Assembly: GCA_030426265.1 (NCBI GenBank)
Contig: JAUHYP010000001.1
Coordinates: 207,054 to 271,053, forward strand
Direction: 5' to 3'
Origin: Gammaproteobacteria bacterium
Lineage (GTDB): Bacteria; Pseudomonadota; Gammaproteobacteria; Xanthomonadales; SZUA-36
Length of the DNA stretch: 64,000 nucleotides
This document shows positions 509-21,670 of the stretch, piece after piece. Under the pieces are notes generated by a model. That model was not told the DNA's origin and made no database searches. It saw only the letters and a list, made by a program, of their open reading frames with translations. The position numbers and the translations under genes are program-made. Position 1 is the stretch's first letter, and each line of letters opens with the position of its first letter.

Positions 509-1309
509 TCAGCCGTCGATGACCTCGTTCAACGCGATCCAGACACCGGGCGCCGCGGCGATCATCGGTGCGCCGGTGAGCAAGTGGGTGGCCTGTCGAA
601 CGGGCTCGTTGGTGCGACCACCCGCTTCGCGGACGATGAGGTCTCCGGCGATGGCGTCCCAGGCATTCATGTGCGGTTCGTAGTATCCGATCAGTCGGCC
701 GGCGGCGACGTGCGCCAGGGACAGGGCGCCACTGCCGCACCGATGAAACATGCCGTTGGCATCCAGGAGCCGGCGCATCGGCGCCAGGGTGTCGTCCGTG
801 CTCACGCGGTTGGAGTGGCCCATACCCACGAGCCCTTCGTCCAGGCGTGTCACCGAGGCGGTGGACATCGGTTGGTCATTGAGGGTCGCGCCACCGTCGA
901 GCAGGGCGCTGAACAGTTCATCGTGGGTCGGGTCGTAGATGACGCCCAGGCGCACCCGGCCGTCATGAAACCAGGCAATGGACACGCACCAGGTGCGCAG
1001 TCCGCAGAGAAAGGGCTGGGTGCCGTCAATGGGGTCGACCACCCAGGTGCCCAGCGACGCGTCCGGCCGGAAGCTGTCGCAGCTTTCCTCCCCCAGGAAG
1101 GCGTCATCGGGGTAGCGGTTGATGACGGCGTCCCGGACCAGGCGCTCAACGGTGTCATCCGCCTCGGTCACCATGTCCTGGACGCCCTTGCTGCGCACGT
1201 CCAGGGCGCCGAGGTCCCGCGAAAATTCCAGCGCGGTGGCACCGGCCTCCCGGGCAAGCGCCCCGGCGAACGCCAGGCGCTCCGCCATTGTTTCCCCTGG
1301 TGCCGTCAT
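509..1309 (-). CDS. Inositol monophosphatase family phosphatase
   Basis: Motifs GEES, DPIDGT, WDAIAG; start chosen at MTAPGETMAERL, giving an ATGA overlap with the upstream lipoprotein gene. Confidence 0.88.
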   Translation of the reverse strand: MTAPGETMAERLAFAGALAREAGATALEFSRDLGALDVRSKGVQDMVTEADDTVERLVRDAVINRYPDDAFLGEESCDSFRPDASLGTWVVDPIDGTQPFLCGLRTWCVSIAWFHDGRVRLGVIYDPTHDELFSALLDGGATLNDQPMSTASVTRLDEGLVGMGHSNRVSTDDTLAPMRRLLDANGMFHRCGSGALSLAHVAAGRLIGYYEPHMNAWDAIAGDLIVREAGGRTNEPVRQATHLLTGAPMIAAAPGVWIALNEVIDG

Positions 1310-1788
1310 TGCATTCGGTACACGGGCGCCTCGCAGGCCCGCAGGATGGCGAAGGTCTTGGACGTCGCGGGCGTGGAAACCTCGACGATGACCTCGTCCA
1401 GGTCGGTCAGCGTCTCGAACACCGTCACTTCGAACGATTTCAACACTGCCTCGCCTCCACAGTCCACTTCGAAGGACCATTCGCCGTCCTCTCCGGTGGC
1501 ATCGTAGCGGGTTCGGCAGTCCGGACGATCACCGAGGTCGAAGATTCCGCCCTCGGCGGCCAGCTGTTCCGTTCCCGAACCCAGCGCGCCGGGCTCCGGC
1601 CGGAACACGCCGTTCAGTGTGCCGGATGGACCAAAGTCCAGGTCCAGGGTCGACACCGGGCCGGAGTCCCTCGGGTGGACGGGGTAGGGGCCGCGACAGG
1701 GGTCGGGCTCGCCATCGTCCGCACAACCGGCCACGAACAGGCACGACAGCAGGACGCCCGCAATTCTTCGGAAGCTGATCTCAGTCAC
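1306..1788 (-). CDS. Hypothetical lipoprotein
   Basis: N-terminal signal with lipobox LFVAGC; overlaps both neighbours by a few bp (operonic). Confidence 0.7.
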   Translation of the reverse strand: MTEISFRRIAGVLLSCLFVAGCADDGEPDPCRGPYPVHPRDSGPVSTLDLDFGPSGTLNGVFRPEPGALGSGTEQLAAEGGIFDLGDRPDCRTRYDATGEDGEWSFEVDCGGEAVLKSFEVTVFETLTDLDEVIVEVSTPATSKTFAILRACEAPVYRMQ

Positions 1789-3172
1789 GCGCTTTCACCC
1801 GCCACAGGCAGGCCGCCAGCAGCACAGATACCACCGAGGCCCCGACCCAGAACACGATGGGCGCGGAATAGTCATAGAAATAGACGGTCTGAGTCGCCTC
1901 GCCGAAGCTGAAGACCACCTGCGTTTCGCTTTCATAAATCAGTTTGCCACTGATGTAGTCCTGCATGCCGGCGCCGATGTAGCTGAAGATGCCGATGAAG
2001 CCCATGGCCGCCCCCGCCACGTTCTTGGGCGCCACGTCGATGGCGAACAACCCGCCCAGGGAGGCCAGCAGCCCGCTGAGCCCAAAACCGTAAACGACCA
2101 ACGCCACGGCCAGCAGCAGGTCATTCTGTGGCCCGAAGAAGATGACCCACAGCGGCAGCAGTTCCATCAGGCCGAACATCAGGTTGGCCGGAGGCCGGCG
2201 CGCTGAAAACCACTTGTCGGAGATGAATCCATAGGCCACGCAGCCGAGGATTCCCGCCGCCGTGTTCAGGAAGATGAACAGGTTGGCGTCGAACAGGTCG
2301 AAGCCGCGGATTTCCTGAAGGTAGACGTTGCCCCAGCTGTTAATGGCGTACCGGGTGACGTACATGCTGGCGCTCGCGACCGCGATCACCCAGATGGCGG
2401 GAATGGTCAGGACGCGCAACTGATCGCGCAGGATGGTGCCGGCGTCGCGCGCCCGGGTCGAGACGTGGTTGATGACGTCGTTGCGCCATTCGGCCACGGG
2501 AGGCAGCCCCAGGGTCTGCGGACGGTCCTGGAGGTACCGAAGTGCGATCAGGGACGCGAGCACGCAGACGGCCGCCGGCGTGATGAAGCCCCAGGACCAG
2601 TGCAGCCCCAGCCCCTTGGGCGGGAGCGCGATCAACAGCGCGATGCCGAGGTAGGTGAGGCCTTCGCCGATCGAGTGCGCGGTACTCCAGATACCGTAGT
2701 AGCGGCCGCGTTCGTTGTTGCTGAACCAGTTGGCCAGCGCGACCACGCTGGACGGGGCGCCGAAGCCCTGGAACCAGCCGTTGAGCACCCAGAGCGCCGC
2801 CGACAACCAGACCACCGTGGACATCGCCATGCCGAAATTCATCAGTGCCGACAGGAACAGCCCGGCCGCGAAGAACCGTTTCACGTTGGCGTAGTCGGCC
2901 AGTATTCCGTTGCTGAACTTGCCCAGCGCGTAGCCGTACAACAGCATCGAGCCGATCAGGCCCATCTCTTCCGGCGTGAACACGCCGGCGTCCATCATCG
3001 GCTTCTTCACCACGTTCAGCGCGAGCCGGCACACGTAGCCCAGGCCGTAGCACAGCGTGATGACCACGATCACGTCGCGTCGGTGGCGACGGAACGCTTC
3101 ATCGATGGCGGCGCTGTCCTCGAGGCGGGGCCTGTCAGGTTGCGCGGCAAAGTATCCGAGTATTGATTTCAA
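1781..3172 (-). CDS. MFS transporter of the organophosphate:phosphate antiporter (OPA; GlpT/UhpT/UhpC-like) family
   Basis: ~12 hydrophobic segments, GYVCRLALNVVKKPMM N-terminal segment and NWFSNNERGRYYGIWSTAHSIGE typical of GlpT/UhpT proteins. Confidence 0.85.
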   Translation of the reverse strand: MKSILGYFAAQPDRPRLEDSAAIDEAFRRHRRDVIVVITLCYGLGYVCRLALNVVKKPMMDAGVFTPEEMGLIGSMLLYGYALGKFSNGILADYANVKRFFAAGLFLSALMNFGMAMSTVVWLSAALWVLNGWFQGFGAPSSVVALANWFSNNERGRYYGIWSTAHSIGEGLTYLGIALLIALPPKGLGLHWSWGFITPAAVCVLASLIALRYLQDRPQTLGLPPVAEWRNDVINHVSTRARDAGTILRDQLRVLTIPAIWVIAVASASMYVTRYAINSWGNVYLQEIRGFDLFDANLFIFLNTAAGILGCVAYGFISDKWFSARRPPANLMFGLMELLPLWVIFFGPQNDLLLAVALVVYGFGLSGLLASLGGLFAIDVAPKNVAGAAMGFIGIFSYIGAGMQDYISGKLIYESETQVVFSFGEATQTVYFYDYSAPIVFWVGASVVSVLLAACLWRVKARD

Positions 3173-3228
3173 GCGATCCCGGCCATTGAGCGGCTTCTGG
3201 TCTGAGCGTTGGCATTATGCCCTTGGTT

Positions 3229-3272
3229 GGAATAATATTTCCAGTCATGTGATTAAAAGGAAATATCGTTCC
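3229..3272. promoter_or_regulatory. Two tandem GGAA-N6-TTCC palindromes (putative RpiR/IolR-type operators) in divergent promoter
   Basis: GGAATAATATTTCC 3229-3242 and GGAAATATCGTTCC 3259-3272, 30 bp apart; second abuts the mmsA start codon. Confidence 0.65.
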
Positions 3273-4769: not shown

Positions 4770-4781
4770 ACGCAACCGCGC

Positions 4782-6401
4782 CTACTGCGCCAGGAGGATA
4801 TAGGTCGCCAGGGTCGCCAGCACGATCACCGCGGAGGCGGGCCGGGCCATGCGCCAGGGGGTCATGTCCACCGGAGCGGGCGCCGTGACGGAATGGTCGC
4901 GCGTGTCGGGGCGCCAGGCGCTGACCCCCGCGATCAGGATCACCGTGAACCCGAACACCACGGCCAGCCAGTGCAGGAAATGGATCGGTTCGGTCGTTCC
5001 GAACCAGCCCTGCACCACCGCCTGCAGCGGTTCGCGGTAGACGAAATTGATCAGGTAGAACAGGACCGGCCCCACCACCAGCGCGGTCTTGGCCGCCAGG
5101 GCGGAGGCCCGTCTCGTGAACAGGGCAGCCAGGATCACGGCCAGCATCGGCCCGAAGAAGGTGGCGTTGATCTGTTGCAGGTAGTTGTACAGGCTGCCGC
5201 TGGTGTCGATGCGCGGCGCCGTCACCATGGCTGCCAGTGCCAGGACGATGGAACACCAGCGTCCGGCGGACACGCGCTGGCGGTCGGTGGCGTCCCGGCG
5301 GAACAGGGGTTGCCATATGCCGTGGCTGAACAGGGTCGCCGCGCTGTTGAGCACGCTGTTGAAGGTGCTCAATACCGCGCCCACCATGACCGCGGCGAAC
5401 AGCCCGGCCAGCGCCGGTGGCAGGACCTCGGCCACCAGCATCGGGTAGGCCTGCAGGTAGTCCGAGCGTTGGAGTTCTCCCTGGAACATATGCCAGGCGA
5501 TCACCCCCGGCAGCACCACCACCAGGGGCCCCAGCAGCTTGAACATCGCCGCCAGCAGAACGCCCTGTTGCCCCGCAGCCAGGCTTTTCGCGCCCAGGGC
5601 GCGCTGCAGGATCGACTGGTTGACGCACCAGAAGAACACCTGGTTCACGATCATCCCGGTGAACAGCACGCCAAAGGGCAGGAAGCTTCCGGGCTCGTCT
5701 CCCGTGATGTCGAACTTGGGCTTTTCTTCGGTGTAGACCGTTTTCAGGCCGTCCAGGGGGTTGCCGTCACCGACAGCCATCAACGCGAGCACCGGGATCA
5801 GCAGGCTGGCCAGGAGGAAGCCGACGCCATTGACGGTGTCGGAGATCGCGATCGCCCTGAGTCCCCCGAAAATCGCGTACAGGCTCCCCAGTCCGCCAAT
5901 GCACCAGACCAGCAGCCAGCGCGCCTGGGATTCGCTGATCCCGAGAACGTCCGAAACGCTGAACAGGCTTTCCATGCCGCTCGCCCCGAACAACAACACC
6001 ACCGGCAGGATGGCCACAGCGTAAGAAAGCAGGAACAGGGCCGACATGATCACGCGGGTGCTCGAATCGAAACGCTGGTCCAGGAACTCCGGAATCGTCG
6101 TCAGGCCACGGCGCAGGTAGATCGGCAGGAACACGAGCGCGGTCAGCACCATCGCGAGCGCCGCCGTGGTTTCCCAGGCCGTGACCGCGATGGTGTGCTG
6201 GAACGCGTCACCGTTGAGGCCGATCAGGTGCTCGGTCGACAGGTTGGTCAGCATCAGCGAGCCGGCGATGAACAACGCACCCAGGCTGCGGCCGGCGAGA
6301 AAGTAGCCTTCCGCGGTCGCGCCAACCGCATGATTCCGGGTGCCCCGCCAGGCGATCACCGCCACCAGGGCGGTGAAGCCGAAAAAGCCGAGCCAGTTCA
6401 A
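4782..6401 (-). CDS. Sodium:solute symporter (SSS/SLC5 family), candidate inositol or sugar transporter
   Basis: AEGYFLAGRSLGALFIAGSLMLTNLSTEHLIGLNGDAF; multi-TM SSS fold; ATGA overlap with upstream phosphatase gene. Confidence 0.88.
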   Translation of the reverse strand: MNWLGFFGFTALVAVIAWRGTRNHAVGATAEGYFLAGRSLGALFIAGSLMLTNLSTEHLIGLNGDAFQHTIAVTAWETTAALAMVLTALVFLPIYLRRGLTTIPEFLDQRFDSSTRVIMSALFLLSYAVAILPVVLLFGASGMESLFSVSDVLGISESQARWLLVWCIGGLGSLYAIFGGLRAIAISDTVNGVGFLLASLLIPVLALMAVGDGNPLDGLKTVYTEEKPKFDITGDEPGSFLPFGVLFTGMIVNQVFFWCVNQSILQRALGAKSLAAGQQGVLLAAMFKLLGPLVVVLPGVIAWHMFQGELQRSDYLQAYPMLVAEVLPPALAGLFAAVMVGAVLSTFNSVLNSAATLFSHGIWQPLFRRDATDRQRVSAGRWCSIVLALAAMVTAPRIDTSGSLYNYLQQINATFFGPMLAVILAALFTRRASALAAKTALVVGPVLFYLINFVYREPLQAVVQGWFGTTEPIHFLHWLAVVFGFTVILIAGVSAWRPDTRDHSVTAPAPVDMTPWRMARPASAVIVLATLATYILLAQ

Positions 6402-7777
6402 GGTGCGCCCGCTGGGTCTTTCAGTTCATCCCGTCCTGAGCGGCGAAGAAAGCGATGTTGGAAGCTCACCGTGGTTTCGCTGCTTCCGTCATCCGGAATG
6501 GTCAGAATGGTCACTTCGCCCTCCTCTTCGCCCAGTTCCAGCGTGGCGAAGCCCCACACCTGGCCACGTGCGTACAGTGTGTGCTTCTGCGGGTAGGTGC
6601 GGTCCTGGTAGTCCATGAAGCGGCTGTGCAGGACCCGCTGTTTTCCGGCCGCTCCGGACACCAGCGTCAGCAACGGCCGGTCATCGGGTGCGCCCAGGCC
6701 CTCACGGCAGTCGTCCATGTGCACTTCGAGGGTGTGCTCATGGCCGGCGAGGAACATGTCCGCGTATCGGCACAATGCCGGATAGAGCAGTTCGCGCAGG
6801 ACGTTGGCTTGTTCGTACTTCCCGCCCGCGCCTGACCACAGGGGATGGTGGGCAATGACGATTTTCCAGCGTGCGTCGGATTCCGCCAGGGCACGCGCCA
6901 GCCAGGCGACCTGGTCCCGTTCCGCGCCCTGGGGAATGGTCCATGGCTCGTGCTCCTCGACCTCTCCGGTGTGCACCGGCGTGCCGTCGTCGGCGAAGGC
7001 GTATTCCGGTTCCTCGTAGGCTGCCAGCAGGAGGGTGGTGTCGATGCCGAACACTTCGACCCCGGGCGCGGGTTCGGTTTTCCACCAGAAACCGTCCATG
7101 CGGTACAGCGGCGAGTCCTGGAGATACTCCAGCTGCGCGACGGCGCCCTCGCGCGAGGTCTCCCAGTCGTGGTTGCCCATGACCGGGTAGATGACGAACT
7201 CGGGATCCTGCTCTTGCAGGCCGATGTAGGGCCGGTTCATCAGCGCCTCGAATCGCTCCGCATCGTCACGGCCGTCGACACCCATCGTGGCGCCCGAGGG
7301 ATAGATGTTGTCCCCGAGCATTACGCCGAACTCGCAACGTTCCGGCGCGGCGCACCAGTCCTTGATCGCCCTCGAGACGGGCCACAGGCCGCTGGCCGGC
7401 ACCCAGCCACCCGTCTGCTCCGCGTAATGGAACGGAGACAGGCGAAATTCCTGGATCGCCATGTTGTCCTCGATCCAGTCATCCAGTTCATTGACGATGA
7501 AGCTGCGCGCGTCCAGGGGGTTTTCGTGGTCGTCCGCTTCGAGCCAGTCGTAGTCGTATCCCGTATCGCCGAAGGCGAGCAGGTTGACCTTGAAGTCCTC
7601 TCCCGTGCCAGTCATGGCCTGTGTGGTGTCCTCGGAGGGCGCCGAGCCCGCGCAGCCTGCAAGGCCGAGAACAAGGGCCAGGCCTGAGGCCTTCAGAGTG
7701 CGGGTCGAAAAGAAGCCTTCGGACCGTCTGGACGAGGTGAAGCGCTGGATGGAGCGTCTCGAAGAGAATGAAGTCAT
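6398..7777 (-). CDS. Purple acid phosphatase-like metallophosphoesterase lipoprotein
   Basis: GDTGYDYD, GDNIYPSGA, GNHDWE, HHPLWS, GHEHTLE metallophosphoesterase motifs; lipobox LGLAGC; alternate start at 7822. Confidence 0.82.
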   Translation of the reverse strand: MTSFSSRRSIQRFTSSRRSEGFFSTRTLKASGLALVLGLAGCAGSAPSEDTTQAMTGTGEDFKVNLLAFGDTGYDYDWLEADDHENPLDARSFIVNELDDWIEDNMAIQEFRLSPFHYAEQTGGWVPASGLWPVSRAIKDWCAAPERCEFGVMLGDNIYPSGATMGVDGRDDAERFEALMNRPYIGLQEQDPEFVIYPVMGNHDWETSREGAVAQLEYLQDSPLYRMDGFWWKTEPAPGVEVFGIDTTLLLAAYEEPEYAFADDGTPVHTGEVEEHEPWTIPQGAERDQVAWLARALAESDARWKIVIAHHPLWSGAGGKYEQANVLRELLYPALCRYADMFLAGHEHTLEVHMDDCREGLGAPDDRPLLTLVSGAAGKQRVLHSRFMDYQDRTYPQKHTLYARGQVWGFATLELGEEEGEVTILTIPDDGSSETTVSFQHRFLRRSGRDELKDPAGAP

Positions 7778-7896
7778 GTCGATGAGCCCTGTTGTGGTTT
7801 CAGCGTTGCGCTGAATTCGCATTTGAAATATTCATTCGATTATAATAGAAAATGAAATTAACATTCTATAACTTGCGTCCACAAGCAGGATCCACC

Positions 7897-9921
7897 ATGA
7901 ACCGAATGCTCATCGCAACGCTCCTTGTTTCACTGGCTGCCTGTCATCCGGCATCCAGGACCCAGGCCGATACCGGTGACTCGGCCGGGGACGAACGCCC
8001 CGTCCTGGCGCCTGCGGCGCTGACCGAACCACCCCGCCTGGGAACCGCTGCCGATGGCGCATTCTGGCCCATCGGTGACACGGCCCTGCTCCTGGCGGCT
8101 GAAGGTGAGGGCGGCCTGAACACCTATGCCATGACCGGAGAACGACTCCAGGCCTATCCCCAGGTGACCGCCGGGATGGTCGAAGTGCTGCGAGACGGCC
8201 AGGCGGAGCCGGTGGCGGCCCTGGTCTACGAGGCAGACCGCAGTGAGTTGTCGCCCTGGCGTGTGAGCGACGAAGACGGCTCGCTCGAAGCGCTGCCCGC
8301 TGTGCCCATACCGGTCCACGATGAACTGACGGGCCTGTGCAGCTATCGCAGTAGCCTGTCCGGTGGCTGGTACGTTTTCGGCACCACCGACGAAGGCCTG
8401 CTGCACCACTGGGAACTGTACCACTCGGGAGATCGTTGGCAGGGTCGCCTGCTGCGCACGATTCCCGCCGGCAAAGGCGCCGGTTTCTGCGCGGTGGATG
8501 CGGCCGACGCCCAGGTCTACGTGGGCGACGAGGAGCTGGGCATCTGGCGATTCGGCGCAGAACCCGAGGCGGACACCACGCGGGAACTGATCGACCTGGT
8601 CGCACCACGTGGACAGCTGGGCGAGGAGATCAAGGGCGTGGACATCTATACGGTCCGCCCGGGCCTGGGGTACCTCGTCGTGGCAGATGCAGGGGAAGGC
8701 TTTCTCAGCGTGTACACCCTGCCGGATGGCGAGTACGCCGGCGCGGTCGACGTCGATGGCCTGTCCGAGGCCGAGGGCGTTGCCGTACTGGCCACCGCCG
8801 GTGGCGGGTGGCTGGCGGTCGCCGACGAAGACCAGTCCGACGGCGCCAGTGAGTTCAAGCTGCTTCCCTGGGCGGAGACGGCTTCCGCATTGGGACTGGC
8901 GGCCGCCGCCGAGGCGGGCGTCCCCCAGGGCACCGTCGCGACCGTCACCCCGACCGTGGAGACGGAGGTTGTCGACAGCTGGGGCGACGCTGCCGACGAT
9001 CCGGCCATCTGGGTGCACCCGGAGGATCCCTCAAAGAGCCTGGTCCTCGGGACCGACAAGAAGGGCGGGCTGCACGTGTACAACCTGGGCGGCGAGTCCA
9101 TCCGGTTCTTCCCCGACGGCCGGATCAACAACGTCGATGTTCGCGACGGCTTCACGCTGGACGGCGAAACGGTCGCCCTGGTGACGGCGAGCAACCGTAC
9201 CTGGAGCAACATCTCCATCTATGCCATCGACCCGGTGACCGCCGAGGTCAGTGAAGTGGCTGACGGCCGGCAAGCGACGGGCCTTCCCGACCCTTACGGC
9301 ATGTGCATGTACCGCAGCGCCCGCGATGGCGCGTTCTATGTCTTCGTCAACGGCAGCGGTGACGGCCTGACGATTCAGTTCCGGCTGACCGAGACCTCGC
9401 CCGGACGTGTCAGTGCCGAATCGGTGCGGGAGATCCCGGTCGGCGGCCAGGCCGAAGGCTGCGTCGCCAACGATACGACCGGCGAGCTGTTCATTGCCCA
9501 GGAAGACTACGGCCTGTGGAAGTACGGGGCGGAACCGGGTGATGGGGCAGACCGTACCCTGATCGACAGCGTCGAAGGCGAACACATGGTGGCGGACATC
9601 GAAGGCGTGTCCATCTGGCACGGCGCCGACGGTGGCGGTTACATCGTGGCGTCCAACCAGGGCGAGAACAGTTACCTGCTGTACCGCCTCGAGGGCGAGC
9701 ATGAGTATGTCGGCAAATTCCACGTGGTTGCCGATGCGGAATCCGGCATTGACGGGGTGTCCGAAACGGACGGTCTGGACGTGACCAGCAAACCGTTGGG
9801 GGAAGCCTACCCGGCGGGCATGCTGGTGGTTCAGGACGGGCGCAATATCGCTCCGGCCGAGCGGCAGAACTTCAAGTACGTGTCCTGGACGGACATCATC
9901 GAGGCGGTCGGGGACGACTGA
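7897..9921 (+). CDS. Tandem-domain 3-phytase (beta-propeller phytase)
   Basis: DSWGDAADDPAIWVHPEDPSKSLVLGTDKKGGLHVYNLGG and NNVDVRDGF BPP signature; degenerate N-terminal copy repeats the same fold; signal/lipobox SLAAC. Confidence 0.9.
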   Translation: MNRMLIATLLVSLAACHPASRTQADTGDSAGDERPVLAPAALTEPPRLGTAADGAFWPIGDTALLLAAEGEGGLNTYAMTGERLQAYPQVTAGMVEVLRDGQAEPVAALVYEADRSELSPWRVSDEDGSLEALPAVPIPVHDELTGLCSYRSSLSGGWYVFGTTDEGLLHHWELYHSGDRWQGRLLRTIPAGKGAGFCAVDAADAQVYVGDEELGIWRFGAEPEADTTRELIDLVAPRGQLGEEIKGVDIYTVRPGLGYLVVADAGEGFLSVYTLPDGEYAGAVDVDGLSEAEGVAVLATAGGGWLAVADEDQSDGASEFKLLPWAETASALGLAAAAEAGVPQGTVATVTPTVETEVVDSWGDAADDPAIWVHPEDPSKSLVLGTDKKGGLHVYNLGGESIRFFPDGRINNVDVRDGFTLDGETVALVTASNRTWSNISIYAIDPVTAEVSEVADGRQATGLPDPYGMCMYRSARDGAFYVFVNGSGDGLTIQFRLTETSPGRVSAESVREIPVGGQAEGCVANDTTGELFIAQEDYGLWKYGAEPGDGADRTLIDSVEGEHMVADIEGVSIWHGADGGGYIVASNQGENSYLLYRLEGEHEYVGKFHVVADAESGIDGVSETDGLDVTSKPLGEAYPAGMLVVQDGRNIAPAERQNFKYVSWTDIIEAVGDD

Positions 9922-9931
9922 TCCTCTTGGG

Positions 9932-9956
9932 GCGCCGGGACGGCTCGTCCCGGCGC
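9932..9956. terminator. Perfect 11-bp inverted repeat between convergent phytase and iolE
   Basis: GCGCCGGGACG-GCT-CGTCCCGGCGC. Confidence 0.6.
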
Positions 9957-10863: not shown

Positions 10864-12683
10864 TGTTCCCGTGCTCCCCGGTAGGCGGCGCGGGCCTCGG
10901 TCACCCTGTCGCTGTCGGAGACGTCCGCCACCGGGACGTCCCACCACGCGCCGCCGGCCTGCGTGGACAGGGACGGGTCCGTATCGATGACGATGACGGA
11001 AACTCCCCCCCGTGCGCGCGCCGCGTCCAGTGCAGCAGCCAGGCCGTCCAGTCCCGCCACGTGCTCGGCATGGGCGCCCATCGACGTGGCATGCGCGGCG
11101 AAATCGACGCGACCGGGGCCGGTGGGCAGGAGGTTGTTGAATGAGTCCCCGCCACAGGAAGACTGAAGCCGCTCGATGCAGCCAAAGCCGCCGTTGTCCA
11201 GCAGCACGATCACGAGGTCGATTCCCATGGTGACGGCCGTGGCGATCTCGGAGTTCATCATCAGGTAGCTGCCATCGCCCACCGTCACGACGACCTCGCG
11301 CTCCGGCCCCGCGAGCTTGACGCCCAGCGCACCGGCAATCTCGTAGCCCATGCAGGAATAGCCATACTCCAGGTGGTAAGCACCGGGCCCGCTGGCCCGC
11401 CAGAGTTTGTGCAGTTCGCCGGGCAAGCCACCGGCCGCGCACACGACGGTGGTCGCGTCGGTGGCGAACCGGTCGAGCACGCCCAGGACGTGCGCATCAC
11501 CCGGCAAGCCAGAAGGCGAAGGCGCGAACGCCTCGTCGATGCGATCGTTCCAGTCGCGCCGCGTCGTGGCCAACTGCTCCCGCCATCCGGACGCCATGGC
11601 GCCGCAATCGACGGTTTGCGCAAGGGTCCGCAGGGCCTCGTCGGCATCCGACATCAGGGCCAGCGCGTTCCACTTGATGGCATCGTGGCGGCAAGGGTTC
11701 ACGGCGATGATGTTCGCTGCGGGCTGGAACAGCGTATTGGAAGCGGTGCTGAAATCCTGCAGGCGCGTACCGATGGCGAGAATGACGTCCGCCTCGGCCG
11801 CCAGGGCGTTGGCCGCCGCGCTTCCGGTAACGCCGAGCGCGCCGGCGTTGCAGTCGTGCGACCAGGGCAGGGCGCCTTTGCCGGCCTGGGTTTCCACCAC
11901 GGGAATTCCTGCGGCCCTGGCGAAATCCGCCAGGCGCGCCTCTGCGCCGGAGTACAGCACGCCACCCCCAGCGATGATGAGCGGGCGCTTTGCTTCGTTG
12001 AGCAGGCGGGCCGCTTGCGCCAGTCGCTCGCGATCGGCGCGGGGGCGGTGGGGCCTGTGCTCGACCGGCTCGAAGAAGGCCTCCGGCCAATCGTAGGCTT
12101 CGGGTTGGACGTCCTGTGGCAGACACAGGGTGACCGGGCCGCAATCGGCCGGGTCGGTCAGCACCGACAGGGCGCGCGGCAGGGTGTCCAGCAACTGTTC
12201 CGGACGGGTGATGCGATCGAAATAGCGCGACACCGGGCGGAAACAGTCGTTGGCGCTGACCGTGGCGTCCCCGAAATCCTCGACCTGCTGCAGGACCGGG
12301 TCCGGGCGCCGCGAGGCGAACACGTCCCCGGGCAACAGCAGGACCGGCAGGCGATTGACATGCGCGAGCGCTGCGGCGGTGACCATGTTGGTCGCGCCCG
12401 GGCCGATGGACGTCGTGCAGGCCATCATGCGTCGGCGCCGGCTGGCCTTTGCATAGGCCACGGCGGCGTGCGCCATGGCCTGTTCGTTGTGGGCCCGGAA
12501 GGTGGGCAGTCGTTCACGCTGGTGTTGCAGCGCTTCGCCCATGCCGGCGACGTTGCCGTGGCCGAAGATCGCCCAGCAACCTGCGAACAAGGGCAGGCTG
12601 TCTCCGTCGATGATCGTGTGCTGCGCGCCCAGGTAGCGTACCAGCGCCTGGGCGGTCGTCAGTCTCCGGGTCGAAGCGCTCAT
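10860..12683 (-). CDS. iolD: 3D-(3,5/4)-trihydroxycyclohexane-1,2-dione acylhydrolase (TPP enzyme)
   Basis: TTAQALVRYLGAQHT, TPP-binding GDGSYLMMNSE, gene context; start at MSASTRRL. Confidence 0.93.
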   Translation of the reverse strand: MSASTRRLTTAQALVRYLGAQHTIIDGDSLPLFAGCWAIFGHGNVAGMGEALQHQRERLPTFRAHNEQAMAHAAVAYAKASRRRRMMACTTSIGPGATNMVTAAALAHVNRLPVLLLPGDVFASRRPDPVLQQVEDFGDATVSANDCFRPVSRYFDRITRPEQLLDTLPRALSVLTDPADCGPVTLCLPQDVQPEAYDWPEAFFEPVEHRPHRPRADRERLAQAARLLNEAKRPLIIAGGGVLYSGAEARLADFARAAGIPVVETQAGKGALPWSHDCNAGALGVTGSAAANALAAEADVILAIGTRLQDFSTASNTLFQPAANIIAVNPCRHDAIKWNALALMSDADEALRTLAQTVDCGAMASGWREQLATTRRDWNDRIDEAFAPSPSGLPGDAHVLGVLDRFATDATTVVCAAGGLPGELHKLWRASGPGAYHLEYGYSCMGYEIAGALGVKLAGPEREVVVTVGDGSYLMMNSEIATAVTMGIDLVIVLLDNGGFGCIERLQSSCGGDSFNNLLPTGPGRVDFAAHATSMGAHAEHVAGLDGLAAALDAARARGGVSVIVIDTDPSLSTQAGGAWWDVPVADVSDSDRVTEARAAYRGAREQ

Positions 12684-14611
12684 GTCGTCTCCAGGCAGGC
12701 GTTCCGCCAGAGCGAGACGATGCGTCGGTAGCGTTCCGCGATGGCGGCACGGGCAGACGCGTCGTCCAGCTTGCCGGTGAACCAGGCCCTGGCGGGCTCG
12801 CCGAAAATACTGCGCCCCACGGCGAAGCCTTTCATGTAGGGAACGCCGGCCGCGGCGCGGAACCCTTCGCGAAGGACATCTTCCGCGGCGTCCAGTCCCA
12901 GCAGCACGATCCCTTTGCAGTGGGGGTCGCAATCGTCGATGACGGCGGACACCGCGCCCCATCCGGCCTGGCTCTGGGATTCCAGCTTCCACCAGTCGGG
13001 AAAAACGCCGAGGTTGTAGAACCGCCGCATGGCCCGGGGCAACGTCGTGTCATCGACCGCATGGTGCGCCGACGGGCAGATCACCTCGAGCACCAGGCGC
13101 CGGTCCTGGGCGCAGATTTCCGTGTACAGCGCACGGACCCGCTCCTCCTGGGCCAGTCGCAATTCCAGCGGATCATCGGGGTGATAGAAGACCAGGCACT
13201 TGATCACGTTGAGGGGAGGCAGGCCCAGCAATTGCTGGCCGAGGCCGGCGCCGGCCTCGAAGGCCAGCGGGCGTGAACCCGGTGTTTCGACCGGGCAGGC
13301 CGTCCAGAGTCCGGAGGCCGACAACCGGTCCATCGCCTCGCCACCGAAACGCTGGTCGACAATGAAGCCGCCGCGAACATCGCCGGGCAGTTCACTCGCC
13401 ACGGACAGGGCGGCCTCGGCAACCAGTGTCTTGAAGGTCGCAATGCGCCCGTGCGGCTGGCCCGTCTCGTTCGCCAGGTCGATGAACTGGCTACGGTGGT
13501 CGAAGGCCAGCACGCAAAGTGGACGCGGGTCGTCCTGCCAGGTCGTGGAACGATGCAGCCGGATCAGTTCCGGATCCAGGCGAGGCACCCGGGGCGTCGG
13601 GTCGCGTTGCAGGAACGCATCCAGTTCGATCCGGCTGGGGATGGCCGGGGTGCAGCCGTGGCGGGCCACGACCAGGGCGCCACAGGCGTTGCCCATGGCG
13701 CCGCACTCGGCCGGTTCCCGGCCGGTCAGCCAGCCGCCGAGAAAGCCGGACAGGAAGGCGTCGCCGGCGCCCAGCGTGTTGAACACCTCCACCGGCTTAC
13801 CGGGCGCCAAGGTGCCGTCATCGAGGGCATCGATCGGGCCTGGTGGGAAGACGACGCACCCATCTGCGCCGCGTTTGAGCACAATCCAGCCATCGCTGAG
13901 CTCGCGCACCCGGCGCAAGGCGGCCAGCAGGTCGTCCTCTCCACCCCCGGCGATCCGAATCTCCTCCTCGGTGCCCACCACCATGTCACACAGGGGCAGG
14001 ACATCCGCCAGCACCGCGCTGGCTTCCGCGCATTGTTCGTAGCGGCTGGCGCCATCACCGGCCGCCACCAGGCCCCAGAGGACGGGGCGGTAATCGATGT
14101 CCAGCGTGACGTGGGTCCCACGTTCGCGTGCGCAGTTCATGGCCCGGACCACGGCAGCCCGGGTCGAGGGCGTGGAGAGATGCGTGCCCGTCACCGACAG
14201 CATGCGCGCGGAGCCGATGAACTCGGGGTCGATGTCGTCTTCGACCAGGCCCATGTCGGCGCAGCGTTCGCGGTAGAAGATGTGCGGAATGTCCTCGCCC
14301 GCTCCGATACCGAGGATGACCAGCGCCGTCAGGCGATCGGGGTCGGTCGTCACGTGGCTGACGTCGACGCCTTCTCCCGCCAGCGCTTCGCGTACGAACC
14401 GCCCCATCTGCTCATTGCCGACGCGGGCCAGCATGGCACTGCGCAGCCCCATGCGCGACAGGCCAGCGGCCAGGTTCGCCGAGGAGCCGCCCAGGTACTT
14501 GGCGAAACTGCGCATGTCCTCCAGGCGCCCGCCCACCTGCTGGCCGTACAGGTCGACGGCCGCCCGACCCAGGCAAATAACGTCCAGGCTGCGAGTACCG
14601 GCCTCAGGCAT
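12680..14611 (-). CDS. iolC: Fused 5-dehydro-2-deoxygluconokinase with C-terminal DUF2090 (aldolase-like, IolJ-type) domain
   Basis: PfkB kinase motifs GGSSANLAAGLSRMG and GAGDAFLSGFLGG, followed by a long second domain (LCVLAFDHRSQFIDL...). Confidence 0.9.
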   Translation of the reverse strand: MPEAGTRSLDVICLGRAAVDLYGQQVGGRLEDMRSFAKYLGGSSANLAAGLSRMGLRSAMLARVGNEQMGRFVREALAGEGVDVSHVTTDPDRLTALVILGIGAGEDIPHIFYRERCADMGLVEDDIDPEFIGSARMLSVTGTHLSTPSTRAAVVRAMNCARERGTHVTLDIDYRPVLWGLVAAGDGASRYEQCAEASAVLADVLPLCDMVVGTEEEIRIAGGGEDDLLAALRRVRELSDGWIVLKRGADGCVVFPPGPIDALDDGTLAPGKPVEVFNTLGAGDAFLSGFLGGWLTGREPAECGAMGNACGALVVARHGCTPAIPSRIELDAFLQRDPTPRVPRLDPELIRLHRSTTWQDDPRPLCVLAFDHRSQFIDLANETGQPHGRIATFKTLVAEAALSVASELPGDVRGGFIVDQRFGGEAMDRLSASGLWTACPVETPGSRPLAFEAGAGLGQQLLGLPPLNVIKCLVFYHPDDPLELRLAQEERVRALYTEICAQDRRLVLEVICPSAHHAVDDTTLPRAMRRFYNLGVFPDWWKLESQSQAGWGAVSAVIDDCDPHCKGIVLLGLDAAEDVLREGFRAAAGVPYMKGFAVGRSIFGEPARAWFTGKLDDASARAAIAERYRRIVSLWRNACLETT

Positions 14612-15431: not shown

Positions 15432-15448
15432 TCGAAAATCCTCTTCAT

Positions 15449-16582: not shown

Positions 16583-16620
16583 GCCGGTTGTTCTCCTCGT
16601 TCCGTGGCCGTTCCCGGATC

Positions 16621-16634
16621 GGAATTATTATTCC
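16621..16634. promoter_or_regulatory. GGAA-N6-TTCC palindrome upstream of the iol operon
   Basis: GGAATTATTATTCC, 39 bp upstream of the start codon of the 15449..16582 gene. Confidence 0.65.
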
Positions 16635-16667
16635 ATATAGATAGTTTATAAAAAATACATTTCACTT

Positions 16668-17666
16668 TCAGGGCGATTCGATGCGCCCGCTGGCCATGGA
16701 ACGCTCGGCGGCCGCGGCGAGACGCAAAGACAGGAGCGCCTCCTGGCCGGTTGCGAGCCCCCCATGGTCCGCGCCGGACTGGCCGCGCACCACGTCGATG
16801 AAGGCGCCGAGCTGGCGCCGGTAGGCCTGCTCGTAGCGTTCCAGGAAAAACGGCAGGGCCGGTTCGGATAGGAAGCCGCCCGCCGTGCCCAGCACCGTCC
16901 GCGTTTCTGAATCATTGTCCGCCCGCGCCACGCCGTCGGCGCAGAAGACTTCCAGTCGCTGATCGTACCCATACGCGCAACGGCGGCTGTTGGTGATTTG
17001 GCACTGGGCGCCCGTGGCGGAGGTCAGCACGACCGTGGCCGTGTCAACGTCACCGGCCTCGCCGATGGCGGGATCGACGAGACAGGATCCGGTGGCGAAG
17101 ACCCCGGTCGGCAACTCGCCCAGCATCCAGAGCGCCATGTCGAGGTCGTGGATCATCATGTCGCGGAACAACCCGCCGGATCGGGCAACGTAGTCGGCGG
17201 GCGGGGGCGCTGGGTCCCGGCTCGTGATGCTGATCACTTCGATCTTGCCCAGGCCGCCCTGGCGGACCGTGTCGTGAACCCGGCGAAAGGACGGATCGAA
17301 GCGGCGGTTGAAGCCCAGGAACAGCGGCACGCCCGCCGACGCCGCGACATCGACGCTGGCCTGGGCGCGCTCGAGGTCGAGGTCGAGCGGCTTTTCGCAC
17401 AGGATGGCCAGGCCCCGGTCGGCGGCCGCGGACACCAGTTCGTGGTGCGTGTCGGTCGAACTGGCGATGATCACGGCGTCGAGCGTAGCGTCGGCGAACG
17501 CCTCGTCCACGGTTCGCGTGGCCGCGCCATGCGCTTCGGCCAGCGAGCGCGCCGCCTGCGGATTGATGTCGACCACGGCGGCGAGCCGCGCGTCGGGCCG
17601 GCCGGCCAGGTTGGCAGCATGGATCCGGCCGATGCGTCCGGCCCCGAAAAGACAAACGTTCAACAT
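16668..17666 (-). CDS. iolG: Myo-inositol 2-dehydrogenase
   Basis: FGAGRIGRIHAANLA, CEKPLDLDLERA, DMMIHDLDMALWMLGE typical of IolG. Confidence 0.9.
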   Translation of the reverse strand: MLNVCLFGAGRIGRIHAANLAGRPDARLAAVVDINPQAARSLAEAHGAATRTVDEAFADATLDAVIIASSTDTHHELVSAAADRGLAILCEKPLDLDLERAQASVDVAASAGVPLFLGFNRRFDPSFRRVHDTVRQGGLGKIEVISITSRDPAPPPADYVARSGGLFRDMMIHDLDMALWMLGELPTGVFATGSCLVDPAIGEAGDVDTATVVLTSATGAQCQITNSRRCAYGYDQRLEVFCADGVARADNDSETRTVLGTAGGFLSEPALPFFLERYEQAYRRQLGAFIDVVRGQSGADHGGLATGQEALLSLRLAAAAERSMASGRIESP

Positions 17667-17691
17667 GTTCAGTGCTCCGTGAGCGGAAGGG

Positions 17692-18537
17692 TCAGTCGGC
17701 GGTCCGGGCATCAAGGCGTTGCGCGAGGCTGATCACGAGCGTTTGCGCCAGGCAGAACGAGGCGGTCAGCGACCGGAACTTCATGACCTCGGCATCGCGC
17801 ACTTCGAAACTGATGTCGGCCTCGCGCGCTGCCGGGCTGAGCAGGCTGTCGCTGATGGACACGATGGTGGCGCCGCGTTCCTTGGCGCGTGCGACGATGT
17901 CAGTGGTTTCCGGTGCGTAGGGTTTGAAACTGACGGCCATCAATAGGTCCCGGTCCGTGATCATCGAACTCTGTTCGTGAAACATCCCGGCCAGCCCATC
18001 GATCAAGTGGGTCGGCTTGTCGACGTGCCGCAGGGCGTAGGCCATGTAGGCGACCACCGGGAACGAACGGCGCAGGCCGACCAGGTAAATGGAGTGGCAA
18101 CGTTCCAGTGCATCGACCGCCTGTTCCAGCGCGTCGGGTGAAACGCTGTCCTGCAGCTGCTCCAACGCCATCACGTTGTTGCGCGCGAACTCCTCCAGCA
18201 ACTGCGCGGGACGCCAGGGCTCGCCCTGTCCCGCACGTTCCTGGAACTGGTGCACCCGCGTCGTGTAACTGGGACTCGGAACGGAATTGATCAGTTCTTC
18301 CCGAAACAGTCGCTGCATCGGGCTGGCGCCTTCGTAACCGAAGGCCTTGGCGAATCGCACGATGGTGGAGGGCTGGACGTCACAGCGCTGGGCGATCACC
18401 GCCAGCGTCTGGAGCCCGACCTCGCTCGGGTTCTCCAGCACGTAGGCCGCCACCTGGCGCAGACGTGGGCTGAGTTCGTCGTGGCGCGCGACGATCTGGT
18501 TTCGCAGGGTGTCCAGGTCCCGGGGTGCTTCAGTCAA
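17692..18537 (-). CDS. MurR/RpiR family transcriptional regulator (putative IolR)
   Basis: N-terminal HTH (LRQVAAYVLENPSEVGLQTLAVIAQRCDVQPSTIVRFAKAFGYEG) plus SIS domain. Confidence 0.9.
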   Translation of the reverse strand: MTEAPRDLDTLRNQIVARHDELSPRLRQVAAYVLENPSEVGLQTLAVIAQRCDVQPSTIVRFAKAFGYEGASPMQRLFREELINSVPSPSYTTRVHQFQERAGQGEPWRPAQLLEEFARNNVMALEQLQDSVSPDALEQAVDALERCHSIYLVGLRRSFPVVAYMAYALRHVDKPTHLIDGLAGMFHEQSSMITDRDLLMAVSFKPYAPETTDIVARAKERGATIVSISDSLLSPAAREADISFEVRDAEVMKFRSLTASFCLAQTLVISLAQRLDARTAD

Positions 18538-18594
18538 GATAATCTGCTCATGGTCGTGTCACCGCATCGATGCGGCCATCTGATGATACAAACA

Positions 18595-18691
18595 TTCCAA
18601 TAATGGAACGTGGTCTCGTTCCAGTCTTCACTTCCTTTCGTCGGTGATGGAATGTATTTTCTATACTTGCATGATACGGAAATTACATTCT
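18595..18691. promoter_or_regulatory. Cluster of GGAA/TTCC-type palindromes between the rpiR-type regulator and TonB receptor
   Basis: TTCCAATAATGGAA 18595-18608; GGAACG-N6-CGTTCC 18605-18622; GGAATGTATTTTCT 18649-18662; GGAAATTACATTCT 18678-18691. Confidence 0.5.
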
Positions 18692-18853
18692 ATACTGAAA
18701 TGGCAATTGAAGTGTCACCATCGGGTCAATAAAAAAGGTGCGGTTCAAAGCGTCGATGGCGCGTCACCGGCCCGAAACAAGAGCGGAAAGTGCACCCCTG
18801 GCTCGGTGCCGTCAGCCGCAAGGGCGATTCATGCTTCAACAGGAGAACCAGAC

Positions 18854-21670
18854 ATGCATGTCATGAACCAGATGGGGCGCCGTGTGGGAGCGCGCCTGCT
18901 CATCATGGCCGCGGCGCTCACCGCCGGCACCACTGTGTTCGCTGACGCCACGCTTCGTGGCCGCGTCAGTGATGCAGACACGCAGCGTCCCCTGGCTTCG
19001 GCCGAAATCCGGATTCCGGAACTCAATCGACGCGTTCGCTCCGATTCGACCGGACATTTCTCGATGACAGGTATCCCCGCGGGGACCTACACCGTCGTCG
19101 TGAACTACACGGGCTACCAGTCCGCGGAAACCAGCCTGACCTTCCCGGAAGAGGGCGCGCTCGACCAGGACGTGCTGCTGGCCGGCTTCGGCGTGACCGA
19201 AGAGGTGATGGTCACCGGCTTCCGCGCCTCCGTGCTCGATTCGGTGCAGGACAAGAACTCCGCGGACATCATCAAGGACTCCATCGACGCGAACGACGCC
19301 GGCAAGCTGCCCGACCAGAACGCGGCGGAAGCCTTGCGGCGCGTACCGGGCGTGTCGATCTCCATCGACCAGGGTGAAGGGCGTTACGTGGCGGTCCGCG
19401 GCATCGATCCGGGCCTGAACAATGTCACCATGGACGGGCAGACCATCGGCGCGCCCGAGGCCGACGACCGCAGGATCGCGCTCGACACCATCCCTTCGGA
19501 TGTGCTTTCCAAACTCGAAGTGATCAAGTCGGTCACGCCGGATCTCGACGGCAACTCCATCGGCGGCACAGTGAACCTCGTCACGCCCAGCCCGTACGAC
19601 GACGAAGACGGATTCATGGTCAAGGGGTCGGCCGACATCGGTTACTACGACATGAACGGCAAGAGCCCTTACAGCGCCTCGGGCGCTTGGTCACAGGTGT
19701 TCGGTCCCGAAGATCAGTTCGGGGTCCTGCTCAGCGCCAGCTTCAGCCGCAGGGAGTACCAGTCCGAAAACGTCCAGACCGATATCTGGGAGGAAGAGGA
19801 CGACTATTACATTCCGGGTGAACTGGTGTTGCGCGACTATTCGCTGGAGCGGGAACGCATCGGTGTCGTGGCCAACCTCGAGTGGCGGCCCAACGACGAC
19901 CTGAAGGTGTACTGGCGCAACCTCTTCAACCGCTTCTCCGACACCGAAGCGCGCATCGAGACGCTCTACGACTACCGGGAAGGCGACCTGTTGGACCAGA
20001 CGGCCACCTCAGGAACCTTCACCGAGGGTGAGGGCGAACGCAACTACAAGATCCGCCTGGAAGAGCAGTCCATCTCGCAGTCGACCCTGGGCGCTGAATG
20101 GGTGAAGGGCGACAACACCTTCTGGCTGAGCGCGACCCTGGGCAAGACTGAGCAGGACACCAAGTACGACAACGAATGGATCTTCGAGCCCGAAGATGCG
20201 TTGCCGATGAGCTATGACACGTCGGACTACTTCCCGCGCGTGACCGCCCCGGCGGAGTTCATGGATCCGGGTTTCTGGGAGTTCAGCCAGGTCGATCGCA
20301 ACAGCCAGTTGGTGGAGGAGGACCTCAACATCTTCCAGTTCGATTGGCGTCACGACCTCGAGTTTGGCGAAAACCCGGGCTACATCAAGACCGGCGTGAA
20401 ATACACGGGTCGCGAGAAAAGCAGCGACAACACCGGACCCAGCTATGACGGGTACGAGGACGACCTGTACCTTGCGGACTTCTTCATGCCCGGCAAGCCG
20501 GATTTCTACAATTCGGTGCGGCCCGGCTTCTATCCCTTCGGACCGGTGCCCAATTACGGCGATTGGGAAGCCTTCTTCGACCAGAACCAGTCCGGTTTCG
20601 AGTTGAACAGCGACGACACCAATGAAGTGGAGTTCGCCGAGGACTTCACCGTCACCGAGGATGTCACCGCCGCCTACATCATGGCCGGCATCGACTTCGA
20701 GAACCTCACCCTGACCGGTGGCGTGCGCTTCGAGGAAACCAAGTCGGACTACGGCGCCTTCGCGGTCCTGTTCGACGATGGTGATTTCGATCGTGCCGAG
20801 CCCACCTCCGGTTCGCAGAGCTATAACGACCTGCTCCCGGGCATCCAGGCGCGTTGGCAGGTGACGGAGGCTTTCGTCGCCCGCGGCGCCTGGACCAACA
20901 CCATCGGCCGGCCGGCGTACATCCAGTTGGTGCCCTATCGCATCTTCGACTTCGAACCCAATGACGACGATGAACTCGAGGGCGAAGTGGAAGAGGGCAA
21001 CCCGGAGCTTGACCGTCTGCAGTCCGAGAACTGGGACCTGTCGTTCGAGTACTACCTCGAGTCCGGCGGCATCATCGCGGCGGGGCTGTTCTACAAGGAC
21101 ATCGACAACCCGGTGTTCTCCCGCTCGGAAACCTTCGAGAACATCATGTACGAGGGTCGCGAGTTCGCTGAACTCGAGATCACCCGTCCCGAGAACGCCG
21201 AGGCCGGCGAGCTGCTGGGCATCGAGCTGAACTGGCAACAGCAGTTCATCGGCCTGCCCGGATTTCTCTCGGGGTTCGGAACCAGCATCAACTACACCTG
21301 GACCGACAGCGAGGCGACCGTTTTCGATCGTGACGACAAGCTGCCGTTCTTCCTGCAATCACAGGATGTGGCCAACGTGTCCCTGTACTGGGAAAAGCAC
21401 GGCTTCGAAGCACGCCTGGCATGGTCGTATCGCAGCGAGTACCTGGATGAAGTCGGCGGCGGTCCAGACGAGGATCTCTACATCGATGCCCACAGCCAGG
21501 TCGATTTCAAGGCCAGCTATGCCGTCAACGACCACTTCGACGTCTACTTCGAGGCACTCAACCTGACGGACGAACCGCTGCGCTACATCAGTGGGAAGGA
21601 TTCAGGCCGCCTGGCGGAAAACGAGGTGTACGGCTGGAACGCGGTACTGGGCCTGCAGTTCAACTACTGA
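18854..21670 (+). CDS. TonB-dependent receptor (Xanthomonas/Caulobacter-type, carboxypeptidase-regulatory-like N-domain)
   Basis: Signal peptide, CarboxypepD_reg-like domain, plug RRVPGVSISIDQGEGRYVAVRGI, C-terminal aromatic NAVLGLQFNY. Confidence 0.95.
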   Translation: MHVMNQMGRRVGARLLIMAAALTAGTTVFADATLRGRVSDADTQRPLASAEIRIPELNRRVRSDSTGHFSMTGIPAGTYTVVVNYTGYQSAETSLTFPEEGALDQDVLLAGFGVTEEVMVTGFRASVLDSVQDKNSADIIKDSIDANDAGKLPDQNAAEALRRVPGVSISIDQGEGRYVAVRGIDPGLNNVTMDGQTIGAPEADDRRIALDTIPSDVLSKLEVIKSVTPDLDGNSIGGTVNLVTPSPYDDEDGFMVKGSADIGYYDMNGKSPYSASGAWSQVFGPEDQFGVLLSASFSRREYQSENVQTDIWEEEDDYYIPGELVLRDYSLERERIGVVANLEWRPNDDLKVYWRNLFNRFSDTEARIETLYDYREGDLLDQTATSGTFTEGEGERNYKIRLEEQSISQSTLGAEWVKGDNTFWLSATLGKTEQDTKYDNEWIFEPEDALPMSYDTSDYFPRVTAPAEFMDPGFWEFSQVDRNSQLVEEDLNIFQFDWRHDLEFGENPGYIKTGVKYTGREKSSDNTGPSYDGYEDDLYLADFFMPGKPDFYNSVRPGFYPFGPVPNYGDWEAFFDQNQSGFELNSDDTNEVEFAEDFTVTEDVTAAYIMAGIDFENLTLTGGVRFEETKSDYGAFAVLFDDGDFDRAEPTSGSQSYNDLLPGIQARWQVTEAFVARGAWTNTIGRPAYIQLVPYRIFDFEPNDDDELEGEVEEGNPELDRLQSENWDLSFEYYLESGGIIAAGLFYKDIDNPVFSRSETFENIMYEGREFAELEITRPENAEAGELLGIELNWQQQFIGLPGFLSGFGTSINYTWTDSEATVFDRDDKLPFFLQSQDVANVSLYWEKHGFEARLAWSYRSEYLDEVGGGPDEDLYIDAHSQVDFKASYAVNDHFDVYFEALNLTDEPLRYISGKDSGRLAENEVYGWNAVLGLQFNY

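Follow-up and report, generated by a model that had tools for sequence, protein, structure and literature searches.

Phytate is the chief form in which plants store phosphorus, and bacterial phytases are nearly always treated as phosphorus-acquisition enzymes. In Flavobacterium johnsoniae, a beta-propeller phytase (BPP) adjoins a TonB-dependent transporter (Fjoh_1367/1368) and the pair is induced by phosphate depletion, with no iol genes reported alongside in the accessible part of that study (PMC8115612). Phytate was likewise predicted as the substrate of a phytase-adjacent transporter in Citromicrobium, by adjacency alone, and the available portion of the report mentions neither iol genes nor a regulator (PMC3400609). 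Inositol catabolism is best compared with the Caulobacter crescentus module, in which an RpiR-type IolR, GGAA-N6-TTCC operators and the same Iol enzymes as here occur, but the inositol transporter is of the ABC type and lies at a second site, and neither a phytase nor a TonB receptor is placed in the module (PMC2597717). The inositol clusters surveyed as IolCatGC share the core iol genes, although phytase linkage is not reported in the part of the survey available to us (PMC9430895), and a 2026 pig-gut study found phytase genes without a conserved neighbourhood (PMC12838507).

The chromosomal stretch analysed here, which we call the window (64,000 nucleotides), carries at 509-21670 a contiguous cluster of genes predicted to serve phytate uptake, phosphate removal and inositol catabolism, together with a regulator and apparently all governed by a single switch of the inositol type. 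Its genes are as follows, profile scores being given as bits / curated NCBIfam cut-off.

509-1480, minus strand (likely start ~1309): inositol-monophosphatase (IMPase) family enzyme; Pfam Inositol_P 169 bits
1306-1788, minus strand: small Cys-containing lipoprotein of ZrgA/PA4063 fold (Pfam, structure model), between OPA and IMPase
1781-3172, minus strand: OPA-family organophosphate:phosphate antiporter, relative of GlpT/UhpT/UhpC; MFS_1 145 bits
3273-4769, plus strand: IolA/MmsA, CoA-acylating (methyl)malonate-semialdehyde dehydrogenase; TIGR01722 633/448.5
4782-6401, minus strand: SSS/SGLT-type sodium:solute symporter; NF007790 (PRK10484) 662/401, vSGLT/SGLT1 in the PDB
6398-7822, minus strand (likely start 7777): purple-acid-phosphatase (PAP)-like metallophosphatase lipoprotein; Metallophos 40 bits, purple acid phosphatase E=1e-6
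7852-9921, plus strand (likely start 7897): tandem BPP lipoprotein; PF02333 395 bits in two stretches, 1poo E=4e-79
9979-10869, minus strand: IolE inosose dehydratase; TIGR04379 395/290, ORF open to 11442
10860-12683, minus strand: IolD trihydroxycyclohexanedione hydrolase, the sole IolD in the genome; TIGR04377 895/715
12680-14611, minus strand: IolC kinase fused to a DUF2090 aldolase; NF047869 721/600, PF09863
14604-15548, minus strand: IolB deoxyglucuronate isomerase; Pfam KduI/IolB 172 bits
15449-16582, minus strand: second Gfo/Idh/MocA dehydrogenase; nearest model levoglucosan dehydrogenase, 319 against a cut-off of 650
16668-17714, minus strand: IolG myo-inositol 2-dehydrogenase; TIGR04380 384/355
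17692-18537, minus strand: RpiR/SIS regulator, IolR-type; HTH_6 + SIS
18854-21670, plus strand: TonB-dependent receptor (TBDR) of the TonB-Xanth-Caul class with a carboxypeptidase-like N domain; TIGR01782 617/310

An earlier note on this DNA had proposed a self-contained inositol-phosphate utilisation locus with almost no unrelated gene. NCBIfam and Pfam profile searches recovered every gene it named, and the cluster does hold almost no unrelated gene, its neighbours being a cytochrome-c-like protein at 46-480 on one side and, on the other, an acyl-CoA dehydrogenase at 21735-22898; the note had overlooked the small lipoprotein at 1306-1788, and where it listed one IolG there are two Gfo/Idh dehydrogenases, only that at 16668-17714 passing the IolG model. 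Its central proposal is backed by synteny and an operator that are both conserved, and by the completeness of the pathway. Its analogy with a polysaccharide utilisation locus holds at the level of function only. Bacteroidetes loci of that kind also unite a TonB receptor, envelope hydrolases, catabolism and a regulator. However, the regulator here is of another class, the substrate would be a small polyanion, and a Pfam scan found no SusD family member in any ORF of the locus, so that the receptor does not form part of a SusC-SusD pair. We put the probability that this is a carbon-type phytate (inositol phosphate) utilisation locus at roughly 0.7.

All seven activities of the myo-inositol pathway IolG-E-D-B-C-J-A are encoded, IolB by Pfam only (its NCBIfam score of 98 falls below the cut-off of 205) and IolJ through the DUF2090 domain, which has been proposed to take that role (PMC9007349). 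The phytase consists of two PF02333 domains in tandem. By residue comparison, the C-terminal domain retains all of what we take to be the active-site residues of the Bacillus 3-phytase (K76, R122, Y159, E211, E227, D258, E260 and D314), and nearly all are gone from the degenerate N-terminal domain (for example, E260 is replaced by K in 6/7), so only the C-terminal domain looks catalytic. This conservation also bears on whether the external substrate is some other inositol phosphate (scyllo-InsP6, a lower InsP or a lipid head group) and the phytase a general InsP phosphatase. The receptor is no more than a candidate as to ligand, and the second Gfo/Idh dehydrogenase, kept in most related clusters and possibly serving another inositol isomer, would fit a diet of more than one isomer; the intact 3-phytase site and a cluster devoid of glycerophosphodiesterase and phospholipase genes nevertheless make such a substrate improbable.

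Synteny in relatives indicates that this gene arrangement is not chance. Among 300 genomes of the order, 20 carry a BPP, 32 an IolD and 10 both, where 2.1 would be expected (Fisher P=4e-6). The two genes lie within 12 kb of one another in nine of these ten genomes and 30 kb apart in the tenth. At least two of IolE, IolD and IolC are found nearby in 21 of the nearest 80 BPP loci. Shared descent connects the loci compared, and a good number come from MAGs, so counts over loci, here and below, are not independent. The linkage of phytase and receptor to iol genes is kept in Steroidobacteraceae, Woeseiaceae, Kordiimonadaceae, Parvularculaceae, Caulobacter and Luteimonas; the earlier note had named as fatal to its proposal the case that no relative links receptor and phytase to iol genes, and this is contradicted. 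Culturable bacteria with a phytase-iol locus include Steroidobacter agaridevorans and Kordiimonas gwangyangensis. The order TBDR-RpiR-IolG is preserved in all 12 related clusters checked, and their receptor is the best match in its genome to the window receptor (second best in L016). Receptors at the same position in Woeseiaceae-type loci are only about 31-34% identical, so their substrate could differ. The partner phosphatase differs among lineages. We also considered a single phylogenetic origin for iol linkage among BPPs and rejected it; the tree requires 10 label changes, which points either to repeated gain or loss of linkage or to short contigs behind some of the 'unlinked' calls.

The promoters of the locus bear on its control. 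The RpiR/SIS regulator adjoins the iol genes, as in the Caulobacter IolR regulon, and is 47-52% identical to RpiR proteins encoded next to IolG in Caulobacter (L037) and Luteimonas (L029). Sites resembling the operators of that regulon occur at four places.

3229-3272, divergent OPA/IolA promoter: two IolR-type operators, GGAATAATATTTCC and GGAAATATCGTTCC, exact matches
7830-7875, divergent PAP/phytase promoter: conserved block with a degenerate IolR operator, GAAATTAACATTCT, 2 mismatches
16621-16634, between IolG and the second dehydrogenase: IolR-type operator GGAATTATTATTCC, exact
18649-18691, RpiR/TBDR intergenic region: a pair of IolR-type palindromes lying 29 bp from one another, each with 1 mismatch

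The block at the phytase promoter is nearly identical in the related cluster L004, where the aligned place holds a site with a single mismatch, and the footprint upstream of the receptor is common to the window, L004 and L111. Across loci, using the core motif GGAA-N6-TTCC as defined externally for Caulobacter IolR and allowing at most one mismatch, we found an operator in 20 of 25 iol-linked phytase promoters (0.148 in shuffled sequence) versus 3 of 54 unlinked ones (shuffled, 0.096; Fisher P=3e-11), two of the 25 (L010 and L020), whose contigs stop short of the iol genes, being counted as linked on the strength of synteny. The same threshold identified an operator in all 13 TBDR/RpiR intergenic regions compared.

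These promoters argue against the reading of the cluster as a phosphorus-scavenging locus, in which phytase and receptor supply phosphate while the iol genes do no more than clear away the inositol that remains. That reading has precedent in the low-phosphate induction of the Flavobacterium pair, as far as the accessible text describes it (PMC8115612), and in a phytase belonging to the PhoB regulon of C. crescentus (PMC11208175). Yet the Pho box is absent from the whole window (0 matches allowing 3 mismatches; 2.6 expected by chance), IolR operators stand at the locus instead, and the genome already possesses a paralogous pair with a Pho box. This second phytase-receptor pair, on contig C19, includes the only close paralogue of the window receptor (64%) and lacks an IolR operator; its Pho box is shared with the orthologue L045, and a similar box lies upstream of phoB-phoR in the same genome. 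In the phytase tree the C19 enzyme is sister to the window phytase, within a clade of mostly iol-linked members. More broadly, with a Pho box called at 12/14 matching positions, 10 of 17 unlinked TBDR promoters have one versus none of the 25 iol-linked phytase promoters, and a Pho-box-like match at this threshold occurs in 1 of 13 iol-linked TBDR/RpiR regions (L102). The C19 pair is most likely under phosphate control, serving phosphorus, and is a closer analogue of the Flavobacterium pair, as the available description presents it, than the locus itself. Given IolR operators here, no Pho box, and a Pho-boxed paralogue elsewhere, we take the locus to be carbon-type and the C19 pair phosphorus-type, and regard phosphorus scavenging as an unlikely account of the locus, though the least unlikely of the alternatives. 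The claim of the earlier note that phytate serves the locus as both P and C source is not supported by this comparison; most likely the locus treats phytate as a carbon source and is induced by inositol.

Phytate is a strong chelator, and many TBDRs carry metal complexes. The receptor might then import zinc or iron phytate, with the ZrgA-like lipoprotein, whose place between OPA and IMPase is conserved in L004, L006, L009, L015, L016, L017 and L024, capturing the freed metal. Pfam ZrgA matches 8/8 members of this lipoprotein family (best 5.7e-9; the window copy itself, E=0.046), and the top 16 Foldseek matches to its AlphaFold model (pLDDT 75) are all ZrgA/PA4063 structures. However, the gene was recovered in just one subset of clusters, few His remain in the window copy, the locus has no metal-type regulator, and a complete carbon pathway stands beside inositol-type operators, so that metal acquisition seems very improbable. 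A Pfam/profile scan found no partner zinc transporter genes among the ORFs of the locus, and we therefore file the lipoprotein as a fold relative only.

For phytate-fed carbon nutrition, gene content suggests the following route. The TonB receptor would admit phytate, free or as metal salts, to the periplasm, where the phytase lipoprotein would strip the first phosphates by means of its C-terminal domain. BPPs stall at about InsP3, and the PAP-like lipoprotein, which carries an LGLAGC lipobox, may for that reason complete dephosphorylation. Free inositol is likely imported by the SGLT-type symporter. In what is the weakest step, the OPA antiporter might exchange phosphate for residual inositol monophosphate, to be cut by the IMPase; the antiporter scores 269 bits with the UhpC model, below cut-off, and aligns with GlpT (1pw4, E=3e-49) including the phosphate-site R and H residues, and the IMPase, with an intact DPIDGT motif and SuhB/IMPase relatives in the PDB (alignment beginning at residue 69), is predicted to be cytosolic, inspection of its sequence revealing no signal peptide. 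The presumed roles of both follow family membership. IolG-E-D-B-C-DUF2090-IolA, an established route, would then turn inositol into DHAP, CO2 and acetyl-CoA. By analogy with Caulobacter, we infer that RpiR binds the GGAA-N6-TTCC sites and represses these promoters until an inositol metabolite appears, and phosphorus demand would be met by the separate Pho-boxed pair of common ancestry. The transport substrates and the regulation given here are predictions.

Growth on phytate carbon would flood the cell with phosphate, for which the conserved OPA antiporter could be the outlet. We raise, tentatively and as somewhat doubtful, the idea that by trading cytosolic phosphate for inositol monophosphate these bacteria are net phosphate releasers, and that duplication divided the phytate nutrition of the lineage between a carbon branch under inositol control and a phosphorus branch under Pho control. 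A conserved class of phytase loci tied to inositol catabolism and an inositol regulator would imply that certain bacteria consume phytate as a carbon source, discarding phosphate as waste at any ambient phosphate level, and would alter predictions of the conditions under which organic phosphorus is mobilised by bacteria of soils and sediments. The presence of an IolR operator or of a Pho box would offer a sequence marker separating the two kinds of phytase locus in genomes, and the clusters provide candidates for phytate receptors, for antiporters of inositol phosphates and for phosphatases that complete the dephosphorylation. Each gene family is already known; of a phytase-iol locus under carbon control, as proposed here, we found no description in the open-licence literature.

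Operator patterns were also scanned genome-wide. A first, loose pattern gave 132 matches, with GC-rich spacers in most of the matches listed, and a stricter AT-spacer pattern gave 17 sites, five of them inside the locus; the AT spacer was taken from the locus itself, and weight is therefore put on comparing linked with unlinked loci by the external core motif. Of the strict-pattern sites outside the locus, three (two on contig C91, one on C20) show no inositol link, their neighbours being genes for polysaccharide export, an asparagine synthase and MFS/acyltransferase proteins. Several listed ORF starts lie too early, the likely starts being 18854 (TBDR), 7897 (phytase), 3273 (IolA), 12683 (IolD), ~10869 (IolE) and ~1309 (IMPase).

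The genes named for the locus in the earlier note (TonB-dependent receptor (TBDR), beta-propeller phytase (BPP), PAP-like phosphatase, symporter, OPA antiporter, IMPase, iol genes and RpiR regulator) are all present in the window, which covers positions 207054-271053 of contig C98 in the source genome G000 (3.6 Mb, 103 contigs), as judged by an ORF listing with codon-position GC and by Pfam and NCBIfam scans. IolA/MmsA, IolC-DUF2090, IolD, IolE, IolG, the SSF symporter and the TBDR class model exceeded curated NCBIfam cut-offs, and IolB was identified by Pfam KduI/IolB together with its position. One additional gene had been missed:

1306-1788, minus strand: ZrgA/PA4063-like Cys-containing lipoprotein, 160 aa, between the OPA and IMPase genes

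Gene order is conserved, at the sequence level, among phytase-iol loci. We searched a genome collection with the phytase C-domain, kept the best 80 loci and matched the window proteins to them; 21 of these have at least two of IolE, IolD and IolC near the phytase, and they belong to Steroidobacteraceae, Woeseiaceae, Parvularculaceae, Kordiimonadaceae, Caulobacter and other Pseudomonadota. A Luteimonas locus (L029) has IolC and IolG. Window-receptor matches were located, and their DNA examined, in 12 clusters (L004, L006, L008, L009, L015-L019, L023-L025); in all 12 the match adjoins a divergent RpiR gene and then IolG, followed by a second Gfo/Idh gene wherever the examined DNA extends far enough. 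This RpiR-adjacent receptor is its genome's best match to the window receptor in 11 of the 12 (second best in L016). The close relative's receptor is 84% identical to that of the window; the value is about 51% for L008, L018, L019, L023 and L025, and 30–32% for the Woeseiaceae-like set. Phytase is rare in the class (10/369 genomes). In an order-wide sample of 300 genomes, phytase occurs in 20, IolD in 32 and both in 10, where 2.1 are expected (Fisher P=4e-6, indicative because the genomes are related), and the two genes lie within 12 kb in nine of these ten and 30 kb apart in the tenth. Parvularculaceae-type loci L007, L011 and L013 each carry two TonB receptors. One Woeseiaceae-like genome encodes a 54–56% relative of the window receptor on a short contig (L112, G007:C89) and has a different receptor in its iol locus.

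Caulobacter IolR, an RpiR/SIS protein, represses iol genes through the palindrome GGAA-N6-TTCC (Boutte et al., PMC2597717). The window contains four exact matches against 0.69 expected, three of them in locus promoter regions (3229, 3259 and 16621), and single-mismatch sites precede the receptor gene at 18649 and 18678. Allowing one mismatch, the site occurs in 20 of 25 iol-linked phytase promoters (18/23 without L010 and L020, two operator-positive loci on contigs ending early that were counted as linked by synteny) but in only 3 of 54 unlinked ones, and in 13/13 RpiR/TBDR intergenic regions. The window's own phytase promoter has a site with two mismatches, within a block almost identical to that of L004. 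The RpiR protein would bind these predicted operators.

Pho boxes, called at 12 of 14 positions of the E. coli consensus, are distributed in the opposite manner. They precede the receptor in 10 of 17 unlinked receptor-phytase loci (shuffle 0.008), half of the ten being Pseudomonas/Alcanivorax relatives and thus not independent, whereas 0/25 iol-linked phytase promoters and 1/13 iol-linked TBDR/RpiR regions (L102) have one; none was found in the 64-kb window. G000 has one other phytase:

G000:C19:1-6500: second phytase-receptor pair (L113), with Pho box CTGTCAAGAAAGTGTCAT between the two genes

The two genes directly adjoin. This receptor is the window receptor's only close paralogue in G000 (1281 bits at 64% identity, against 89 bits for the next match), and the nearest sequenced relative also has the pair, with its Pho box (L045). 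A maximum-likelihood phylogeny of phytase C-domains places the second-pair phytases as sister to those of the window and L004 (support 100/96), in a clade that otherwise consists mostly of iol-linked members. The simplest reading is that the locus's receptor-phytase pair was duplicated, in that presumed direction, and the C19 pair is apparently a phosphorus-controlled duplicate. Similar boxes, located across the whole genome, ahead of phoB-phoR and of a DUF3450-ExbB-ExbB operon, likely a TonB energiser, support the validity of the Pho box in this organism. Ahead of that operon three boxes cluster (G000:C98:19857-19915; L129 3358-3416); beyond it lie genes for a TPR protein and a TonB receptor, and the group is a candidate phosphate-starvation TonB energising system.

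Phytase-TBDT adjacency is already known, and is interpreted in PMC3400609 and PMC8115612 as phytate or phosphorus uptake; one Caulobacter phytase belongs to the PhoB regulon (PMC11208175). In the open-licence literature we found no paper that places a phytase and its receptor together with iol genes under the control of IolR.

The phytase C-domain retains all residues invariant between Bacillus 1poo and other C-domains. The N-domain is degenerate in sequence and probably non-catalytic, since its active-site Lys, Arg, Tyr and Glu are lost (E260 is Lys in 6/7); other two-domain BPPs likewise have a non-catalytic N-domain. Both the phytase and the PAP-like protein begin with lipobox signals. The partner phosphatase is PAP-like in the window, PhoD-type in Steroidobacteraceae (in several alongside a PAP-like one), a histidine phosphatase in Caulobacter and Luteimonas, and, in Parvularculaceae (L007, L011, L013), a PhoA-type alkaline phosphatase with a phosphate-selective OprO/P porin in place of the PAP-like enzyme. 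Such non-homologous replacement across lineages suggests that a finishing dephosphorylation step is required.

In alignment, the OPA protein retains the Arg/His/Lys pattern of the GlpT phosphate site, residues with recognized roles in GlpT. The IMPase retains DPIDGT and has no signal peptide by eye. All transport substrates of the locus are putative; phosphate would be exported and phytate used for carbon. The additional lipoprotein gene is tied to the OPA and IMPase genes in a subset of phytate loci. Its family matches Pfam ZrgA in 8/8 members, the window copy weakly, and in a structure search with its AlphaFold model (pLDDT 75) every match ahead of a steep fall-off was a ZrgA/PA4063 zinc protein; that it handles metal freed from phytate is a guess.

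Beyond the locus, 2.5 kb from the receptor, a 403-aa protein (24224-25435, plus strand) has an oddly placed TonB C-terminal domain at residues 100–171, followed by about 230 residues without a family. The 904-aa product of 25472-28186 (minus strand) contains M23 peptidase-like and InlB-type repeat domains.
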